Shown here piece by piece: positions 39,921 to 48,578 of a DNA stretch of 64,000 nucleotides. A model generated the notes under the pieces. It was given only the letters and a program-made list of their open reading frames with translations, had not been told where the DNA came from and searched no databases. A program made the translations under genes and the position numbers. How positions within the stretch are numbered: the first letter of the stretch is position 1; each line of letters opens with the position of its first letter. The DNA lies in the NCBI GenBank assembly GCA_945860205.1, contig CAMARK010000014.1, positions 1-64,000 of the forward strand, in the 5' to 3' direction. This DNA comes from Reyranella massiliensis 521. Its GTDB lineage: Bacteria; Pseudomonadota; Alphaproteobacteria; Reyranellales; Reyranellaceae.

Positions 39921-40844
39921 ATGTCCTCCGCCACGCCGGCATCCATCGACGCCACCGTCGAGCTTCTGAAGAGCGGCGACTATATCGCCGATCGCAGCCT
40001 CGCCACCGTTCTCTATCTTGCCTTGAAGCTCGGCCGTCCTCTTTTCTGCGAAGGCGAAGCCGGAGTCGGCAAGACCGAGATCGCCAAGGTGCTAGCCACT
40101 ACGCTGAAGCGCCCGCTGATTCGCCTGCAATGCTACGAGGGGCTCGACATCGCATCCGCCGTGTACGAGTGGAACTATGCAAGGCAGATGATCGAGATCA
40201 GGCTGGCCGAAGCGCAGGGCGTGCATGATCGCGGACAGTTGGCCGCCGATATTTTCGACGAGCGATTCCTGATCCGCCGCCCCTTGCTCGAGGCGCTCAG
40301 CCCGCATGCCGAAGGTGCGCCGATCCTGCTGATCGATGAGCTGGACCGGACCGACGAGCCCTTCGAGGCCTATCTGCTGGAGCTGCTGTCCGATTTTCAG
40401 GTCACGATTCCCGAACTCGGCACCGTGAAGGCCGCAGAGACTCCGATCGTCATCGTGACCTCCAATCGCACGCGCGAAATCCATGACGCGCTGAAGCGCC
40501 GCTGCTTCTATCACTGGGTCGACTATCCCGACCTGAAGCGCGAACTGGAAATCCTCAAGGTGAAGGCGCCGGGATCGAGTGAGCGCCTGTCGCGGCAGGT
40601 CGTGGGCTTCGTCCAGGAATTGCGCAAGCTCGACCTCTTCAAGGCGCCAGGCGTGGCGGAGTCGATCGACTGGGCCACCGCGCTTTCGGAACTGAACGCG
40701 CTCGACCTCGATCCCAGGACCATCAACGATACGCTGGGCGTGTTGCTGAAGTACCAGGACGACATCCAGCGCTTGCAAGGCACGGAAGCAGCCGAAATCC
40801 TGCGCAAGGTGAAGTCCGATATCGCCGCCGAGCCGCTGGGCTAG
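39921..40844 (+). CDS. MoxR-type AAA+ ATPase, CoxD-like
   Basis: The 307-residue ATPase has Walker A G45-EAGVGKT and Walker B PILLIDELDR (about 134-143), then VTSNRTREIHDALKRRC with sensor and arginine-finger residues. It is the MoxR branch. In carboxydotrophs its relative CoxD remodels apo-CO dehydrogenase during assembly of the sulfido-molybdenum site. Here it heads an operon with VWA, XdhC, molybdopterin-binding and SufS/U genes, supporting that role. GGGAG precedes the ATG at 39921. An earlier frame start is less good. Confidence 0.86.
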   Translation: MSSATPASIDATVELLKSGDYIADRSLATVLYLALKLGRPLFCEGEAGVGKTEIAKVLATTLKRPLIRLQCYEGLDIASAVYEWNYARQMIEIRLAEAQGVHDRGQLAADIFDERFLIRRPLLEALSPHAEGAPILLIDELDRTDEPFEAYLLELLSDFQVTIPELGTVKAAETPIVIVTSNRTREIHDALKRRCFYHWVDYPDLKRELEILKVKAPGSSERLSRQVVGFVQELRKLDLFKAPGVAESIDWATALSELNALDLDPRTINDTLGVLLKYQDDIQRLQGTEAAEILRKVKSDIAAEPLG

Positions 40845-40852
40845 GTCGGGTG

Positions 40853-42103
40853 ATGGACGCGCTGCCCGACTCGGCACCGGTGCCTGACCCCCGCGAGGGC
40901 AAGCTCGCCACCAATATCGTGCACTTTGCCCGCACGCTACGGACCGCCGGGTTGCGCGTCGGGCCCGGGCAGGTGCTGCGTGCCATCGAGGCGGTCGAGG
41001 CGGCAGGTCTGCGGAAGAGGGACGACTTCTACTGGACGCTGCATTCGGTGTTGGTGAACCGGCGCGACCAGCGCGAGATCTTCGATCAGGCATTTCACGT
41101 CTACTGGCGCAATCCGCGGCTCCTGGAAAAGATGATGGAGATGTTGCTGCCGCAGGTTGGCGTGCCGGTGGAGCAGGATCAGCGCAAGCAGCTCAGCCGC
41201 CGCCTGCAGGAGGCCCTGCAGCCCGGCCGGGGCGAGGCGCCGCCCGATGAAGGCGAGCCGCCGGAAGTCGAGGTCGAGGCGACCTTTACCGTTTCCGATC
41301 GCGAGATCCTGCAGCACCGGGACTTCGAGCAGATGTCGCAGGCGGAGATCGACGACGCCTTGCGGGCCATCGCCCGGATGCGCCTCCCGGTCCCGGAGCG
41401 GCGGACCCGGCGCTATCGTGCGGCCCGACGTGGCCCCAGGGTGGATTTCCGCGCCTCGCTGCGCCGGGCGCTGCGGCCGGAAGGGCTGACCGAGTTGCGC
41501 CGCCGGGAGCCGCGGCGCCGGCCGCCGCCTCTGGTCGTGCTGTGCGACATTTCAGGGTCGATGGCGCGCTACACCCGCATGTTCCTGCACTTCATGCATA
41601 CGATTACCAACGATCGGGACAGGGTCTTCTGCTTCACCTTCGGCACGCGCCTGACCAATGTGACGCGCTCGCTGCGTTATAGGGATGTGGATATAGCGCT
41701 GGCCAAAGCCTCGGCGCAGGTCGAAGATTGGTCGGGTGGCACACGGATCGGACAGTCGTTGCACGAGTTCAACAACAAATGGTCGCGCCGCGTCCTGGGG
41801 CAGGGGGCCGTGGTCGTGCTGATAACCGACGGGCTCGATCGCGAAGGCGGTGACGGCCTCGCGGCGGAAATGGAGCGCCTGCACAAGTCGTGCTCGCGGC
41901 TGGTTTGGCTGAACCCGCTCTTGCGCTACGGTGCCTACGAACCCAAATCCCAGGGCAACAAGGCCATGTTGCCCCATGTCGATGAATTCCGACCCGTTCA
42001 CAACCTCGAAAGCCTGGCCGGGTTGATCACGGCCCTCGGCGCGGTGACGCCCGGCGCCGATCGACGGCTGGCCACATGGCAGACAGAACTGCGCAAGGAG
42101 TAG
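40853..42103 (+). CDS. VWA domain protein, CoxE-like
   Basis: The 416-residue protein has a helical N-terminus, a charged, arginine-rich middle (about 125-225) and a C-terminal von Willebrand A domain. The MIDAS metal site is D232-I-S-G-S, and LITDGLDREGGDG follows later. CoxE-type VWA proteins work with a MoxR/CoxD ATPase as an insertase pair. The gene starts nine bases after the ATPase gene. A GTG three bases upstream is an equal start choice. Confidence 0.86.
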   Translation: MDALPDSAPVPDPREGKLATNIVHFARTLRTAGLRVGPGQVLRAIEAVEAAGLRKRDDFYWTLHSVLVNRRDQREIFDQAFHVYWRNPRLLEKMMEMLLPQVGVPVEQDQRKQLSRRLQEALQPGRGEAPPDEGEPPEVEVEATFTVSDREILQHRDFEQMSQAEIDDALRAIARMRLPVPERRTRRYRAARRGPRVDFRASLRRALRPEGLTELRRREPRRRPPPLVVLCDISGSMARYTRMFLHFMHTITNDRDRVFCFTFGTRLTNVTRSLRYRDVDIALAKASAQVEDWSGGTRIGQSLHEFNNKWSRRVLGQGAVVVLITDGLDREGGDGLAAEMERLHKSCSRLVWLNPLLRYGAYEPKSQGNKAMLPHVDEFRPVHNLESLAGLITALGAVTPGADRRLATWQTELRKE

Positions 42104-42108
42104 ATATC

Positions 42109-42429
42109 ATGAGCGACGCCCTCGATGTGCTGGATCAGGTCGGCAAGTGGAAGAGCTCGGGCAAAGGTGTCGCCATCGCCACGGTGATCACGACCTGGGG
42201 GTCCTCGCCGCGCCCGGTCGGCAGCCAGCTCGGCGTCGATGACTCGGGCGCCATGGTCGGCTCCGTGTCGGGCGGCTGCATCGAAGGCGCCGTCGTCAAG
42301 GAAGCACTCGACGCGATCAAGGACGGCAAGCCGCGGCTGCTCGATTTCGGCGTCACCGACGAGCAGGCCTGGGACGTGGGCCTGGCCTGCGGCGGCAAGG
42401 TCCAGGTGTTCGTCGAAAAGGTAAACTGA
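42109..42429 (+). CDS. XdhC/CoxI family protein, N-terminal half only
   Basis: The 106-residue protein covers only the XdhC_CoxI domain: VAIATVITTWGSSPRPVGSQ, then MVGSVSGGCIEGAVVKEAL (the conserved S-G-G-C cysteine that holds the molybdenum cofactor sulfur) and FGVTDEQAWDVGLACGGKV. In E. coli-type and Rhodobacter XdhC this domain is fused to a Rossmann domain. Here the Rossmann part is the next gene, four bases on. The two probably form one functional XdhC that binds and sulfurates Moco. Confidence 0.88.
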   Translation: MSDALDVLDQVGKWKSSGKGVAIATVITTWGSSPRPVGSQLGVDDSGAMVGSVSGGCIEGAVVKEALDAIKDGKPRLLDFGVTDEQAWDVGLACGGKVQVFVEKVN

Positions 42430-42433
42430 TCCG

Positions 42434-43162
42434 ATGAAGACCGAGACCCTCGCGGCTCTCCAGCAGGCCCGCACCGAGCGCACCGCCGTCACCTTGGCGA
42501 CGCGCCTCAGCGACGCCGCCGAAACCATGATCTATCTCGACAGAGTCGACGGCGCGATGGCGGGCGATGCCACGCTGGTGTCCGCCGCGCGCCGCGCCAT
42601 GGCGATCGGCCGCAGCGAGACGATCGATCTCGGCGGCCAGAAGATCTTTCTCAACGTCTATGTGCCGCCGCCGCGCCTGATCATCGTGGGCGCGGTCCAT
42701 ATCGCCCAGAGCCTGGCGCCGATGGCGACCATGCTCGACTTCGACGTCACCGTCGTCGATCCGCGCGGCGCCTGGGCCACCAGCGCGCGCTTTCCCGGCG
42801 TGAAGGTAATTCAAGATTGGGCCGACGAGGCGTTCCAGGCGATGGGGCTCGACGTTTCGACCGCCGTCGTCACCTTGACTCACGATCCCAAGCTCGACGA
42901 TCCGGCGCTCGAAGCGGCGCTGAAGTCCGATGCCTTCTATATCGGCGCGCTCGGCAGCCGGAAGACCCATGCCAAGCGCAAGGAGCGGCTATCCGAGGTG
43001 GGGATCACCGACGACATGTTCGCGCGCGTCCATGGCCCGGTCGGCCTCAACATCGGTGCCAAGTCGCCGGCCGAGATCGCGGTGTCCATCCTGGGCCAGA
43101 TCGTCGAGGTCCGGGCGCGCCGTCTGGAAATTCTGGCGGGACCGAAGGTGGTCGCAGCGTGA
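42434..43162 (+). CDS. XdhC family protein, C-terminal Rossmann half
   Basis: The 242-residue protein begins with a remnant CoxI-like segment (AVTLATRLSDAAETMIYLD) and then carries the XdhC_C Rossmann domain: PRLIIVGAVHIAQSLAPMA, TVVDPRGAWATSARFPG, VVTLTHDPKLDDPALEAAL, YIGALGSRKTHAKRKERL and GLNIGAKSPAEIAVSI. It pairs with the preceding half to load the molybdenum cofactor, as XdhC/CoxF do. Its stop overlaps the next gene as GTGA. Confidence 0.88.
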   Translation: MKTETLAALQQARTERTAVTLATRLSDAAETMIYLDRVDGAMAGDATLVSAARRAMAIGRSETIDLGGQKIFLNVYVPPPRLIIVGAVHIAQSLAPMATMLDFDVTVVDPRGAWATSARFPGVKVIQDWADEAFQAMGLDVSTAVVTLTHDPKLDDPALEAALKSDAFYIGALGSRKTHAKRKERLSEVGITDDMFARVHGPVGLNIGAKSPAEIAVSILGQIVEVRARRLEILAGPKVVAA

Positions 43163-44811
43163 GATTCGGCGACACTCCCATCGACGAGGCTACGGGCGCG
43201 ATCCTGGGCCATGGCTGGCGTTCGGGCGGGGTCAATTTCTCCAAGGGCAGGACGCTTTCGGCCGACGATGTCGCCAAGCTCAAGGCCGCTGGCGTCTCGA
43301 CGGTGGTGGCCGCGCGGCTCGATGCCGACGACGTTCATGAAGACGAGGCAGCGGCGACCGTCGCCAAGGCGTTGGCAGGCGAGGGCATAGAGGTCACGGC
43401 GCCTTTTACGGGGCGTTGCAACCATTTTGCCCGCGGCTCGGGGCTCGCCGTCGTCGATCACGCCCGCATCGACGCGCTGAACGAGCTCCACGAGTCGGTC
43501 ACCGTGGCGACCTTGCCGCCCTTCGCGCGAGTAGAACCGCGCCAGATGGTGGCGACGGTAAAAATCATCCCCTATGGCGCGCCGAAGTCGGCGGTGGCGC
43601 GCGCCGTCGAGGTCGCGCATTCGGCCAACCTGCCGCTCATTTCCGTGGCGCCGTTCCGGGCGATGCGGGCCGGATTGGTGCAGACCAGGCTGCCGGGCAC
43701 GCGTGACAAGGTGCTCGACAAGGCGGTCGGCACGACGACCAAGCGCCTGACATCGCTCGGCAGCACCTTGAACGGCGAGCGCCGCGTTGCGCACGATGCC
43801 GTGGCCATCGCGGGAGCACTGAAGGAATTGAAGGCGGAGGGCTGCGACCTCTTCCTGATCGCCGGCGCGTCGGCGATCGTCGACCGAAACGACGTGGTGC
43901 CGCTCGGCATCGCGGCGGCCGGCGGCAAGATCCATCATTTCGGCATGCCGGTCGATCCGGGCAATCTTCTGTTGACGGCCGAACTCGACGGCAAGCCCGT
44001 GCTGGGCCTGCCGGGGTGCGCCAAGTCGCCGAAGTACAACGGCTTCGACATGGTGCTGGAGCGGCTGGCCGCAGGACTCATCGTGGGCCGGGCGGAGATC
44101 GTCCGCATGGGCGCGGGCGGCCTGCTGGCCGAGATCGCAAGCCGGCCGCAGCCGCGCGACGATGAGCCGTCGGACGGCGAGGGCCCGCAGCAGGTGCCGC
44201 GCGTCGCGGTCCTGGTCCTGGCCGCCGGCCGGTCGACGCGGATGGGCGGGCCCAACAAGATGCTGGCCGATGCCAATGGCGCGCCACTGGTCGTCCATGC
44301 TGTGAAGTCGGCGCTCGAATCGCAGGCCGTCGAGATCGTGGTCGTGCTCGGTCACATGGCGGAGCAGGTGAGGGCAGGCATCGAAAGCGCCATTCCCGGC
44401 CGGTCGCGCCTGCGCTTCGTCACCAATCCGGATTTCGTCGATGGCCTCAGCACGTCCGTGCGGACCGGCATCGGCGCACTCAGCTCCAATATCGATGCCG
44501 CCGTCGTGCAGCTGGGCGACATGCCAGGTGTCGGCGCCGGCCTGCTCAATCGGCTGATCGCGGCTTTTAGCCCGGTCGAGGGCCGCGCGATCTGCGTGCC
44601 GACGGTGGGCGGCAAGCGCGGCAATCCCGTGCTGTGGGCGCGGCGCTTCTTTTCCGAGATGGTCACGCTCTCCGGCGACAGCGGCGCCAAACACCTGATC
44701 GGCGAGCACGCCGATCTCGTCTGCGAGGTCGAGATGGCGGGTGAGGCGGCGATCACCGACATCGACACGCCCGAGGCGCTTCAGGCCTGGCGGGAGCGGA
44801 GTCCGGTATGA
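43159..44811 (+). CDS. Fusion: molybdopterin-binding (MoeA/MogA-like) domain plus MocA-type nucleotidyltransferase
   Basis: From the GTG at 43159 the protein has 550 residues. The first part (about 1-340) is molybdopterin-binding, with CDLFLIAGASAIVDRNDVVP and PGNLLLTAELDGKPVLGLPGCAKSPK. The second part (about 347-550) is a nucleotidyltransferase: VLVLAAGRSTRMGGPNKML (LAAGxSxRMG is the CTP-using MocA form rather than GTP-using MobA), VVQLGDMPGV and GKRGNPVLW. It would make molybdopterin cytosine dinucleotide, the cofactor form of xanthine-oxidase-type and CO dehydrogenases. It is coupled to XdhC upstream and SufS downstream. Confidence 0.87.
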   Translation: MRFGDTPIDEATGAILGHGWRSGGVNFSKGRTLSADDVAKLKAAGVSTVVAARLDADDVHEDEAAATVAKALAGEGIEVTAPFTGRCNHFARGSGLAVVDHARIDALNELHESVTVATLPPFARVEPRQMVATVKIIPYGAPKSAVARAVEVAHSANLPLISVAPFRAMRAGLVQTRLPGTRDKVLDKAVGTTTKRLTSLGSTLNGERRVAHDAVAIAGALKELKAEGCDLFLIAGASAIVDRNDVVPLGIAAAGGKIHHFGMPVDPGNLLLTAELDGKPVLGLPGCAKSPKYNGFDMVLERLAAGLIVGRAEIVRMGAGGLLAEIASRPQPRDDEPSDGEGPQQVPRVAVLVLAAGRSTRMGGPNKMLADANGAPLVVHAVKSALESQAVEIVVVLGHMAEQVRAGIESAIPGRSRLRFVTNPDFVDGLSTSVRTGIGALSSNIDAAVVQLGDMPGVGAGLLNRLIAAFSPVEGRAICVPTVGGKRGNPVLWARRFFSEMVTLSGDSGAKHLIGEHADLVCEVEMAGEAAITDIDTPEALQAWRERSPV

Positions 44812-46028
44812 GCTTCGATGTCAGAGCGGTTAGAAGCCAGTTCCCGATCCTGTCCGAAATCATCGACGGCCGGCCGGTTCACTATCTCGACAACGGCGCC
44901 TCGGCGCAGACGCCCGATGCCGTGCTCGATGCCGTGCGGACCTATGAAACCACCGGCCGCGCCAATGTGTTGCGCGGCGTCCATCGCCTCGCCGAGCGGG
45001 CAACCGATGCCTACGAGAATGCCCGCACCGAAGTCGCGACCTTCCTCGGTGTCGCACCCATGGAGATCATCTTCACGGGCGGCTGCACGGCAGCGATCAA
45101 CCTGGTGGCCTATTCCTACGGCTCGCTCCTGAAGCCGGATGATCGCATCCTGCTGTCGGAGCTCGAGCACCATTCCAACATCGTGCCGTGGCAAATGCTG
45201 CGTGCGCGCGCCGGCATCGAGATCGACATGGTGCCGGTGACGGTGGACGGCCGGATCGATCTCGAGAAGCTACCGGAACTGATCACGCCGCGGACCAAAC
45301 TGATCTCGCTGGCACACGTTTCCAACGTGACGGGGGCGATGGTCGATGTCGGCACCGTGGTTGCTGCCGCCAAGACCGTCGGCGCCAAGGTCATGCTCGA
45401 TGGCGCCCAGAAGGCCCCGCATGGTCCCATCGACCTGCCGGCGCTCGGCGTCGATTTCTACGCCTTCGCCGGCCACAAGGCCTATGGGCCGAACGGCATC
45501 GGCGTGCTGTGGGCGAAGGCCGAGCTGCTCGAAGCCATGCCGCCCTTCATGGGTGGCGGCTCGATGATCGGCCGCGTGACATTCGCCGAAACCACCTGGG
45601 CACCGCCGCCGCGACGGTTCGAGGCCGGCACGCCGCCGATCGGTCCCGCGATCGGCCTGGGGGCTGCCTGCAAATGGATGCGGGCGCTCGACTGGACCGG
45701 CGCGCACGCGCACGAGATGATGATGGTGCAGCATCTGATGGACGGGCTGCAGAAGATCGACGGCGCCCGGATTTTTGGCCCGGCCGGACTGCAGAACCGC
45801 TATCCGGTCGTGTCATTCATGCTGGACGGCGTCCATCCTCACGACGTCGCCCAGACGCTCGACTCGTTCGGCGTCGCGGTCCGCGCCGGCCATCATTGCG
45901 CACAGCCGCTGATGGACCGCTTCGATCTCGACGGCACGACGCGTGTTTCCATGGCGCCGTACAATGATCGCAGCGACATCGATGCCTTGCTGACCGGCGT
46001 GCGGCACGCCGCCAAGACGCTTCGATGA
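44808..46028 (+). CDS. sufS: Cysteine desulfurase, SufS type
   Basis: The 406-residue PLP enzyme removes sulfur from cysteine as a persulfide. The PLP lysine is K224 (FAGHKAYGPNGIGVLW). HHSNIVPWQML and SLAHVSNVTGAM are SufS/CsdA hallmarks. The catalytic cysteine is C364 in RAGHHCAQPLMDRF, with the short group II loop. The start overlaps the molybdopterin fusion gene (ATGA) and SufU follows. sufB, sufC and sufD are absent, so a dedicated role in sulfurating the molybdenum cofactor is plausible. Confidence 0.92.
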   Translation: MSFDVRAVRSQFPILSEIIDGRPVHYLDNGASAQTPDAVLDAVRTYETTGRANVLRGVHRLAERATDAYENARTEVATFLGVAPMEIIFTGGCTAAINLVAYSYGSLLKPDDRILLSELEHHSNIVPWQMLRARAGIEIDMVPVTVDGRIDLEKLPELITPRTKLISLAHVSNVTGAMVDVGTVVAAAKTVGAKVMLDGAQKAPHGPIDLPALGVDFYAFAGHKAYGPNGIGVLWAKAELLEAMPPFMGGGSMIGRVTFAETTWAPPPRRFEAGTPPIGPAIGLGAACKWMRALDWTGAHAHEMMMVQHLMDGLQKIDGARIFGPAGLQNRYPVVSFMLDGVHPHDVAQTLDSFGVAVRAGHHCAQPLMDRFDLDGTTRVSMAPYNDRSDIDALLTGVRHAAKTLR

Positions 46029-46038
46029 GAATGGGGTG

Positions 46039-46446
46039 ATGAGCGACCAACTCTACCAGGAACAGATCGTAGCGCTCGCCAAGGCCAGGACAGGTGCGGG
46101 CAAGCTGGCGAACCCGACCAAGTCGGCCCGCCGGGACAACCCACTGTGCGGCGACCGGGTGACGATGGACGTCCGGTTGGACGGGCAGGGCAAGATTGCC
46201 GAGATCGCCCATCAGGTGCGCGGCTGCCTACTCTGCCAGGCATCGGCCTCGGCGCTGTCCTCGATTGCGATCGGTCGTGACGCCGTGGGCATCGCGGCGG
46301 CGCGTCACGAAGCCGAACGGGCGGTCGGGCGGGAAGAGGGGGGAGCTGCCGGGCCGTTCGCCGCTTTCGCGCCCGTTGCCGCCCACAAGTCGCGGCAGGA
46401 ATGCGTGCTGCTGCCGTTCGAAGCGCTAAAAGACGCGCTCGCGTAG
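46039..46446 (+). CDS. sufU: SufU-type zinc sulfurtransferase
   Basis: The 135-residue protein has the SufU zinc ligands: C37 and D39 in NPLCGDRVTMD, C63 in RGCLLCQASASAL, and C122 in RQECVLLPF. An extra cysteine, C66, stands where many SufU proteins have serine. SufU receives the persulfide from SufS. The insertion between ligands two and three is of the SufU rather than IscU kind. The stop codon lies in the first copy of a 16-base triplicate repeat. It is the last gene of the operon. Confidence 0.87.
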   Translation: MSDQLYQEQIVALAKARTGAGKLANPTKSARRDNPLCGDRVTMDVRLDGQGKIAEIAHQVRGCLLCQASASALSSIAIGRDAVGIAAARHEAERAVGREEGGAAGPFAAFAPVAAHKSRQECVLLPFEALKDALA

Positions 46447-46550: not shown

Positions 46551-48578
46551 ATGCGATATCTTCTGACCAGTCTGGCTCTTCTGAGCCTTTTCACCTTTCC
46601 GACTCTCGCCGTTGCCCAGGACCTAGCCCTGAAGCGGGTGATGCTGTCGTCGGGCGGCATGGGCTACTTCGAATATGAAGCCGCCGTCGATGGCGACGCG
46701 ACATTGAAGCTCACGGTCTCGCTGCAACAGGTTGACGACGTGCTGAAGAGCCTGGTCGTCTACGACGACAAGGGTGGCGTCGGCGGCCTCAGCCTGCCGG
46801 GGCGCGAGCCGCTGGCCCAGGCTTTCAAGGACCTGCCGTTCGACCAGGCCTCCCTAGGATCACCGGCCGAGTTGCTGGCGACCCTGAAGGGCGCGCAGGT
46901 CACCGTCGGCGGCAGCCGTGCAATCTCGGGCCGTATCGTTTCGGTCCAGGAAGAGACCGTCGCTCTCGGCGCCGACAAGGGAACGACCACGCGCACGCGC
47001 GTCACCCTGTTCACCGGCCTCGGCCTGCAACAGTTCATCCTGGAAGATGCGGAGAACCTGCAGTTCGCCGATGCGGCGCTGCGCGACAAGGTCAGTCAGG
47101 CCCTGGTCGCCATCCAGGGCAACCGCGCCAAGGATGCCCGCACCATCGAACTGTCGACGCGCGGCACGGGCAAGCGCGTCGTGCGGGTTGCCTACATCGT
47201 CGAAGCGCCGGTGTGGAAGGCGTCTTATCGCCTGACCATGGGCGCGGACCCGGCGGCGCCGCGCTCGGCGCTACAGGGCTGGGCTACGATCGAGAATCTG
47301 AGCGGCCAGGACTGGAAGGACGTCGAGCTCACCTTGGTATCGGGCCGGCCGGTCGCCTTTCGTCAGGCTCTCTACAACGCCTACTACGTCACGCGCCCGG
47401 AAGTGCCGGTCGAAGTCGCCGGCCGCCTCGTGCCCGGCGTCGACCGTGGCGGTGTCGAAGCCGATCAACGCAGCAAGGCCTCGGTACCGTCGATGCCCGC
47501 ACCGGCACCGTATCGCGCACAGCAGGAGCGCACCATGTCACCGGCCGCCGCGCCGCCACCGCCTCCGCCGCCAATCGCCGCCGCAGCCGAGCAGATCGAA
47601 GCCTCGGATGCCGCGACCCAGGTGGTGTTCAAGTTCCCGCGCGCCGTCAGCGTCGACAACGGTCGCACGCTGTCGATTCCGATCATCGACCGCCAGGTGC
47701 CGGCGCTGCGGATGGCGCTCTATCAGGCCGACGCCGCGCCGCGCAATCCGCTGGCCGCCATCCGCCTCACCAACGACGGCGAGAGCGGTCTGCCGCCGGG
47801 CCTGATCACGATCTACGAGCGCGACAAGGCCGACAGCGTGGCCTATGTCGGCGACGCCCGGCTCTCGGGCTTCCCGGTCGGCGAGACGCGGCTGCTGGCC
47901 TATGCGCTCGACGAGAAGATCACCATCGAGCGCGACGTCGCCCAGACCGACCGGCTTGCCACGGGAACCATCTCCCAGGGCGTGCTCAAACTCTCGCGCA
48001 TCGTACGCCAGACCGCGGTCTACCGCGTGCGCGGCCCGGCCAAGGAGCCGCGCCAGCTCATCGTCGTGCAGCGCCGGCTGCCGGGCTGGACGCTCACCAA
48101 GCCCGACGCCAAGGGCATCGACATCAGCGAGGGCAACTACCGCATCCCGTTCACCCTGCCGGGCGGCGACCAGACCCAGACGTTGGAAGTCGTTCAGGAG
48201 CAGACACAGCAGCAGGAGCTGCGTCTGGTCGATGGGGCCGCCGACCAGATCCGCGTCTATGCCCAGGCGCGCGAGTTCGATGCCAAGACCCGCGATGCGC
48301 TCACCAAGGTGCTGCAACTGCAGCAGTCCGTTGCCGAGGCCCAGCGCAAGGGTACGCAGGTCGATGCCGAGCGGCAGGCGATCGCGCAGGAGCAGGCGCG
48401 ACTGCGTGAGAACCTTGCCCGCGTGCCGGCCAACAGCGACCTGCAGCGCCGCTACCTCGCCACGCTCGACAAGCAGGAGAGCGACCTGGAAGCGCTGGCC
48501 AAGCGCAAGATCGAGGCGGAGAAGGGCGTCGAGACGGCGCGCGACGCGCTCAGGACGTACGTGGCGCAGCTCGGTTAA
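46551..48578 (+). CDS. DUF4139 domain protein, secreted
   Basis: The 675-residue protein follows GGGGAGG and has a signal peptide (MRYLLTSLALLSLFTFPTLAVA). The N-terminal part includes KRVMLSSGGMGYFEYEAAVDG. The DUF4139 region follows, with RVVRVAYIVEAPVWKASYRL and WATIENLSGQDWKDVELTLV, interrupted by a proline/alanine-rich linker (about 330-360). The C-terminal 120 residues are a long charged coiled coil. The family has no proven function, and relatives in other bacteria are called mucoidy inhibitor A-like. It stands alone, and its stop shares TTAA with recG. Confidence 0.83.
   Translation: MRYLLTSLALLSLFTFPTLAVAQDLALKRVMLSSGGMGYFEYEAAVDGDATLKLTVSLQQVDDVLKSLVVYDDKGGVGGLSLPGREPLAQAFKDLPFDQASLGSPAELLATLKGAQVTVGGSRAISGRIVSVQEETVALGADKGTTTRTRVTLFTGLGLQQFILEDAENLQFADAALRDKVSQALVAIQGNRAKDARTIELSTRGTGKRVVRVAYIVEAPVWKASYRLTMGADPAAPRSALQGWATIENLSGQDWKDVELTLVSGRPVAFRQALYNAYYVTRPEVPVEVAGRLVPGVDRGGVEADQRSKASVPSMPAPAPYRAQQERTMSPAAAPPPPPPPIAAAAEQIEASDAATQVVFKFPRAVSVDNGRTLSIPIIDRQVPALRMALYQADAAPRNPLAAIRLTNDGESGLPPGLITIYERDKADSVAYVGDARLSGFPVGETRLLAYALDEKITIERDVAQTDRLATGTISQGVLKLSRIVRQTAVYRVRGPAKEPRQLIVVQRRLPGWTLTKPDAKGIDISEGNYRIPFTLPGGDQTQTLEVVQEQTQQQELRLVDGAADQIRVYAQAREFDAKTRDALTKVLQLQQSVAEAQRKGTQVDAERQAIAQEQARLRENLARVPANSDLQRRYLATLDKQESDLEALAKRKIEAEKGVETARDALRTYVAQLG

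Follow-up and report, generated by a model that had tools for sequence, protein, structure and literature searches.

A probable molybdenum-hydroxylase maturation operon with its own SufS and SufU-type protein in Reyranella massiliensis 521 and related bacteria

A probable maturation operon for molybdenum (Mo) hydroxylases, which also encodes a cysteine desulfurase (SufS) and a SufU-type protein, lies at positions 39921-46446 of a 64,000-nucleotide stretch of Reyranella massiliensis 521 (assembly GCA_945860205.1, contig CAMARK010000014.1, positions 1 to 64,000), called here the window. Its seven tightly packed genes, all on the forward strand, encode a MoxR/CoxD-like AAA+ ATPase (39921..40844), a CoxE-like VWA protein (40850..42103), the N-terminal part of XdhC with the XdhC_CoxI domain (42076..42429), the C-terminal part of XdhC with the Rossmann domain (42434..43162), a fusion of some 340 weakly MoeA/MoaB-like N-terminal residues to a C-terminal MocA-type cytidylyltransferase (43159..44811), a SufS-family cysteine desulfurase of a maturation-linked group (44808..46028) and the SufU-type protein (46036..46446, starting at GTG 46036 or ATG 46039). 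The junctions measure, in order, 5, -28, 4, -4, -4 and 7 bases and, together with the domain models, confirm the gene content, the coordinates and the close packing (gaps of ten bases at most, or overlaps) given in a first-pass annotation of this DNA. The overlap of 28 bases between the genes of CoxE and of the XdhC N-terminal part presumes that the latter begins at its first ATG, 42076; because alignments with many homologues begin only at its residue 11 or 12, the true start may be 42109.

The CoxE-like protein (VWA_CoxE, PF05762, 237 bits) adjoins a MoxR-type ATPase, as in CoxDEF maturation sets, and this ATPase scores over the cut-off for AAA_5 (38 bits) and below that for NCBIfam MadB_ATPase (266 bits, cut-off 475). 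The division of XdhC into two proteins is clear from XdhC_CoxI (PF02625, 87 bits) and XdhC_C (PF13478, 154 bits), both over cut-off and on two adjacent genes; against TIGR02964, the equivalog model of xanthine dehydrogenase XdhC, the two pieces reach 29 and 73 bits, below the cut-off of 162. In the fusion protein (550 residues) the NTP_transf_3/MocA domain (113 bits) occupies residues 351-518 and scores 146 bits against TIGR03310 (MocA), below the cut-off of 186. An AlphaFold2 (AF2) model of the fusion, with a predicted local distance difference test (pLDDT) score of 89, places its C-terminal domain close to Rv0371c and its homologue (Z 25, root mean square deviation (r.m.s.d.) 2.1-2.2 over 189-195 residues). 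Domain match and fold thus bear out the MocA half of the molybdopterin-binding/MocA fusion first proposed, whereas the N-terminal half is a putative molybdopterin-binding domain, weakly supported by a match to MoeA (1uz5, E 0.0045); the matches of the fusion in the fold search were dominated by its C-terminal domain. SufS passes the cut-off of its family model (TIGR01979, 508 bits, cut-off 475).

The naming of the last gene product as SufU proved right in fold and residues and fell short in score, since the protein reaches 70 bits against TIGR01994, for which the cut-off is 92.5. Its AF2 model (pLDDT 96.3) has the SufU/IscU fold and superposes on SufU of Bacillus subtilis (6jzw_B) with an r.m.s.d. 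of 1.8 and a template modelling (TM) score of 0.88. The protein contains C38, D40, C64 and C123, the Cys-Asp-Cys-Cys set that we take to be the metal-site residues of SufU, and an extra cysteine, C67. The first four are invariant in 43 of 43 SufU sequences from the maturation loci classified below as type i or ii, the window included. Cys67 is found in 39 of these 43, with threonine in the remainder, and the SufU proteins of SUF operons (n = 5) have serine at this position in four cases and cysteine in one.

No hydroxylase subunit and no sufBCD genes had been noticed in the 64 kb, and tblastn agrees: no match at E 0.01 was obtained in the window with the 17 large subunits of the genome, two small-subunit domains, SufB/C/D and four candidate medium-subunit open reading frames (one of which, L155_12, does not resemble such a subunit). 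A hydroxylase hidden within the window was rejected on this ground, and MoCoBD_2 has no match on the window's contig.

The genome (4.98 Mb, 210 contigs, 100% complete) gave no match to SufB/SufD (PF01458, SufBD hereafter), a search that was positive in 14 of 14 control genomes and in which SufC alone was not sought genome-wide. With SufB and SufD missing, this sufS cannot have come away from a sufBCD operon elsewhere, and the refuting case named in the first-pass annotation, a complete sufBCD operon lacking sufS, does not arise. An ISC operon is present, with IscS, IscU and HscA over cut-offs and IscR-, IscA- and ferredoxin-like proteins below equivalog cut-offs; it contains two consecutive desulfurase genes (L113, 4653-7025, contig C74), the first for a NifS-like protein of 372 residues below the listed cut-offs and the second for a regular IscS. 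No SufS other than that of the operon passes the cut-off genome-wide, the next-best match having 184 bits, with 177 bits for the ergothioneine enzyme EgtE, below the EgtE cut-off. Elsewhere, SufS and SufU are Fe-S assembly proteins, and a [2Fe-2S] SufU structure exists (9dcl), which would suit a role of the pair in building or repairing the [2Fe-2S] clusters of hydroxylase small subunits, or as another general Fe-S system alongside ISC. We regard such a role as very improbable, given that SufBD is absent from this genome and from 75 of the 76 genomes of its order, that ISC is present, and that the genes linked to the pair are those of XdhC, a chaperone of the Mo site, and of MocA, an enzyme that acts on the cofactor.

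The hydroxylases themselves are encoded elsewhere in the genome. PF20256 has 20 matches, which we read as 17 Mo-hydroxylase large-subunit genes, none of them on the window's contig; models of hydroxylase large subunits recognise every one of the 17 (NCBIfam 10, Pfam the others), among them a true XdhB of xanthine dehydrogenase (1101 bits, cut-off 850). None of the seven operon proteins is encoded in the stretches of 9-18 kb around these 17 genes. The operon's XdhC_C is the only one over cut-off genome-wide, and a second XdhC was rejected, the sole other match (contig C3) having 23 bits, below cut-off. With a single XdhC_C and a single SufS, both in the operon, and 17 large subunits elsewhere, service must therefore be in trans, as the first-pass annotation had it, one maturation operon serving many hydroxylases unless some of them need no XdhC. 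The sequence AYRCSFR, presumably the loop of form I carbon monoxide (CO) dehydrogenase, occurs in none of the 17 large subunits, one of which reads AYRCPNK, and CO dehydrogenase was rejected as a client for this reason.

Conservation of the operon was examined in the order and in the class. Of the 76 genomes of the order, Reyranellales, 69 have a full-length SufU-type match (full-length matches having been separated from short IscU ones by eye), each of the seven others being at most 90% complete. The 57 loci examined comprise 56 of maturation type and the SUF operon of G025, the one genome of the order with SufBD. SufS lies directly 5' of SufU in 56 of the 56 maturation-type loci, an arrangement so constantly kept that it cannot be ascribed to chance, and the order MoxR, CoxE, XdhC-N, XdhC-C, MocA, SufS, SufU is retained as far as the contigs extend, with MocA and SufS some 0.7-1.5 kb further apart in a few genera. 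Both parts of XdhC were found in 99 maturation loci, and in all 99 the protein is split. A DUF4139/MuiA-like gene (below the MuiA cut-off), which in the window lies downstream at 46551-48578, adjoins the operon in most of the order's loci.

G025 carries sufBCDSU (L096, contig C101, 6618-11907) and, on a separate contig, a maturation operon with its own SufS-SufU; with both sets in one genome it is a natural control, and its sufBCDSU was apparently added in a lineage that otherwise lacks SufBD. Within the order, the SUF-linked protein of G025 is the only one that passes the TIGR01994 cut-off. In a tree of 65 SufS proteins, built by a quick method without bootstrap, maturation and SUF SufS lie on opposite sides of a branch with a Shimodaira-Hasegawa approximate likelihood ratio test (SH-aLRT) value of 100. 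On the maturation side are 36 SufS of maturation operons, three SufS of SufS-SufU pairs, L329 (also from a maturation operon) and the long-branched L211, and on the SUF side are 20 SUF SufS and four lone SufS of genus g43. The SufS-SufU pair as a remnant of a SUF operon was rejected, because its SufS stands apart from SUF SufS in this tree and G025 has both sets.

Across the class, a profile built from the order's SufU has matches in 251 of 385 genomes. Sixty loci were classified: 21 of type i (SufS flanked by MocA and SufU, or SufS-SufU at the edge of a contig; in a few, no MoxR-CoxE or XdhC was found in the stretch), one SufS-SufU pair without the other genes, 21 of type ii (SufU directly behind MocA, no SufS), four SUF operons and 13 other homologues. 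All 43 genomes of type i, pair and type ii contain SufS. SufBD is absent from 18 of the 22 genomes with SufS beside SufU, and of the 21 type ii genomes 17 have it and four, all of one genus (g43), lack it. Where a type ii operon and SufBD occur together (17 genomes), the sole SufS adjoins sufBD (16 read directly, G454 by coordinates), and a SUF-type SufU also stands beside sufBD in 10 of the 16 read. The four genomes of g43 have one unlinked SufS each, and by its place in the tree this SufS seems to be of SUF descent, kept although the genomes are now without SufBD; ABC-ATPase-like matches lie within 10 kb of it (L228-L231). The operon had been called self-contained in the first-pass annotation, a term that fits the window's genome but not the group in general, in view of the 21 of 43 relatives whose operon lacks SufS, 17 of these 21 having SufBD and a single SufS beside it.

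Among the 13 other homologues, CGS replaces CGD in 10 and the last cysteine is absent in 10. Both changes are seen in the solo SufU homologues L210, L214, L215, L216, L219, L220, L221, L223, L224 and L225, beside which no SUF or XdhC genes were found; because of these two changes, such proteins may bind no metal.

SufBD is absent from 127 of the 385 class genomes, of which 40 contain SufS (E<=1e-120). Maturation-type SufU, at a cut-off set in this analysis (E<=1e-30), was found in 36 of these 40 and in none of the 87 without SufS (Fisher p 1.5e-27, uncorrected for kinship or genome size; the 36 genomes represent 17 families). SufS is directly 5' of SufU in 32 of the 36, of which 29 are operons or contig ends and three are pairs in family f44; the other four belong to g43. 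Regardless of SufBD, SufS is present in all 66 genomes with maturation-type SufU at this cut-off, which includes five SufU loci without XdhC or MocA (G127, with an adjoining SufS, G312, G373, G450 and G452), all in genomes that carry SufBD and are hence outside the 36, and which misses G110, a genome with the full operon. The four SufBD-negative genomes with SufS and no such SufU are G110 and G256, which carry the operon, G077, which is 81% complete, and G092, of 0.6 Mb. Without the SUF core, SufS is thus retained almost only together with the maturation operon.

These counts also bear on the idea that SufS-SufU feed earlier Moco synthesis (the MoaD thiocarboxylate), tRNA or thiamine, and lie in the operon for the sake of regulation. 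To our knowledge tRNA thiolation is near-universal, and 87 of the 127 SufBD-negative genomes show no SufS despite it. IscS is available for such tasks, and domain-model searches identified no moa or thi gene among the operon proteins. Molybdopterin synthesis in other bacteria is indeed fed by cysteine desulfurases (PMC8300815), and we nevertheless give this idea very little credence.

By record titles, the arrangement extends beyond the class. Among the best 80 SufU loci of a scan of named genomes (taxon names being those of the depositors' record titles), MocA and/or SufS stand upstream of SufU on the same strand in 75, with both in 45, MocA alone in 27 and SufS alone in three. Titles among these 80 include Nisaea, Dongia mobilis, Pelagibius, Inquilinus, Rhodocyclales, Sulfuritalea, Thiothrix and gammaproteobacterial metagenome-assembled genomes. 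In L282, titled Deltaproteobacteria, matches to MocA, XdhC-N and XdhC-C precede SufU, with CoxE and MoxR on the opposite strand. The operon is short, and clusters of this kind can arise for reasons of expression, so that co-regulation might alone explain the neighbourhood of a SufS without any special partner. This is scarcely credible, considering that the linkage is kept in many families and also, among the best 80 named loci, in records titled Rhodocyclales, Thiothrix and Gammaproteobacteria, that maturation SufS form their own group in the tree, and that SufS retention follows maturation SufU.

With a probability of about three in four, we propose that the operon is a Mo-hydroxylase maturation module with its own SufS-SufU line, which sulfurates the Mo cofactor (Moco) on XdhC for hydroxylases in trans. 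Gene content, conserved linkage, the absence of SufBD, the uniqueness of SufS and XdhC_C over cut-off, the separate SufS group and the pattern of SufS retention were observed by computation; the chemistry is proposed as follows. SufS would turn cysteine sulfur into a persulfide; SufU, as a sulfur acceptor of the zinc type, would activate SufS and carry the persulfide; and XdhC, here two proteins, would hold the cofactor and accept the sulfur that becomes its terminal Mo=S ligand. Completion of the cofactor would fall to the MocA-type cytidylyltransferase with its attached putative molybdopterin-binding domain, and we infer that the MoxR/CoxD-CoxE pair is a chaperone that uses ATP to open apo-hydroxylases, allowing insertion or sulfuration. 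Sulfur would thereby pass from cysteine via SufS and SufU to Moco on XdhC and on to the apo-hydroxylase, the clients in trans being the 17 hydroxylases of the genome, xanthine dehydrogenase included. The last step of the sulfur line, from the SufS-SufU persulfide onto XdhC-bound Moco, is modelled on work with NifS4 and XdhC of Rhodobacter capsulatus (PMC2997495). Overall, the first-pass interpretation, with persulfide from SufS-SufU to XdhC as its proposed last step, is supported by the search of the genome for coxL/xdhB-type genes and other desulfurases (17 large subunits; IscS and the NifS-like protein, no other SufS over cut-off) and by the comparison of gene order in relatives.

The SufU step is the weakest of the proposed route, because the operon of G256 (L232) has MocA and SufS without a linked SufU and continues with a gene that by eye resembles a lytic transglycosylase; for the same reason SufU may be dispensable. 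SufS alone might pass sulfur to XdhC in the manner of NifS4, which interacts directly with XdhC (PMC2997495), SufU being merely an activator of SufS or a metal or redox guard and not a carrier. We consider this unlikely, since 21 of the 43 classified relatives retain SufU behind MocA with SufS outside the operon, so that SufU is the part whose linkage persists, and since its presumed metal-site residues are invariant throughout the 43 type i/ii sequences.

Several further points weigh against a dedicated SufS-SufU line. The SufU-type protein stays below the cut-off of TIGR01994, though it matches that model over nearly its whole length; four of the 22 genomes in which SufS adjoins SufU also carry SufBD; in four f39 genomes operon SufS and SufBD are both absent; and in five of the best 80 named loci neither MocA nor SufS stands beside SufU. 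In family f44 (L207, L331, L332) an adjacent SufS-SufU pair occurs in genomes lacking SufBD, and the sequence retrieved around it shows no XdhC, MocA or Cox genes. The search for hydroxylase large subunits covered the window's genome only. In a MocA tree the presence of operon SufS changes about 10 times, and raw counts link it to SufBD absence (operons with SufS, 29 without and seven with SufBD; operons without SufS, four and 20), but the tree-corrected association is not significant (p 0.25), because only three independent pairs lie on well-supported branches. Lastly, for Oligotropha carboxidovorans sulfuration has been proposed to take place on the folded apoenzyme, with CoxF delivering copper and not sulfur (PMC4240915).

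We are nonetheless inclined towards a wider reading, in which SufS-SufU would be an Fe-S-independent standing sulfur line for the Mo hydroxylases of Alphaproteobacteria and of certain other proteobacteria. Persulfide would be relayed to XdhC-bound Moco by a SufU specific to maturation, in most cases with Cys67 beside the metal site, and SufS would form a separate lineage; operons without SufS would borrow the SUF SufS, g43 keeping a SUF-type SufS without SufBD.

Several known systems resemble parts of this module. The closest is NifS4 of R. capsulatus, a desulfurase that binds XdhC and sulfurates XdhC-bound Moco before insertion; its gene could not be inactivated and appears to be essential, and another sulfur-transfer role has been suspected (PMC2997495), SufE being called its physiological partner (PMC6239281). 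The likeness lies in a cysteine desulfurase partnering XdhC, here judged from genes alone, and the difference in that SufS and SufU lie within the maturation operon of a genome without SufBD and so look dedicated, the carrier being of SufU type and not SufE. The literature on SufS-type enzymes with XdhC includes, besides the NifS4 review PMC2997495, PMC6424863. In O. carboxidovorans a CoxD-type ATPase, the VWA protein CoxE and an XdhC-domain protein jointly mature the Mo site, and the coxDEFG operon serves one Mo-Cu enzyme, with the sulfur source stated as unknown (PMC4240915); the operon described here differs in carrying its own desulfurase, and none of the 17 large subunits has AYRCSFR.

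With the SUF system (SufBCD-SufS-SufU) the operon shares two sulfur-mobilising families and the SufS-SufU adjacency. It differs from SUF in the lack of SufB/C/D in the window and of SufBD in the genome, in a SufS apart from SUF SufS, and in a SufU-type protein below the SufU cut-off that usually has the extra Cys67 where four of five SUF SufU have serine. For selenium-dependent Mo hydroxylases, comparative genomics has tied an accessory family homologous to XdhC to a TIGR01977 desulfurase/selenocysteine-lyase homologue (PMC2276186), but that pyridoxal phosphate (PLP) enzyme has been interpreted as a selenocysteine lyase, in a system that goes with selD, whereas a SufS-family desulfurase and SufU are found here. 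Like the eukaryotic Moco sulfurase ABA3/MOCOS, the module would contain a dedicated desulfurase that provides more than one enzyme with a Mo sulfido ligand; ABA3/MOCOS is one polypeptide with a MOSC domain (PMC2997495), whereas SufS, SufU and XdhC are separate here. The available parts of PMC4240915, PMC10434068, PMC8300815, PMC2276186, PMC6239281 and PMC10609526 do not describe this operon, and no description of a dedicated SufS-SufU within a Mo-hydroxylase maturation operon was found in the literature searched, which excluded most subscription papers. An XdhC-partnered desulfurase is known as a concept; the novelty lies in a dedicated SufS-SufU pair that belongs to the maturation operon itself, in genomes lacking SufBD.

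For annotation, SufS and SufU should not be read as evidence of a SUF Fe-S system. Enzymes of the xanthine-oxidase type cannot do without the sulfido ligand, and its donor in the CoxD/CoxE-type route has been stated to be unknown (PMC4240915). Here the candidate donor shares the operon and, having no SufBD to serve, its SufS is probably cleanly deletable, unlike NifS4. If the proposed route is true, the sulfur source left unknown for CoxD-dependent sulfuration would be supplied.

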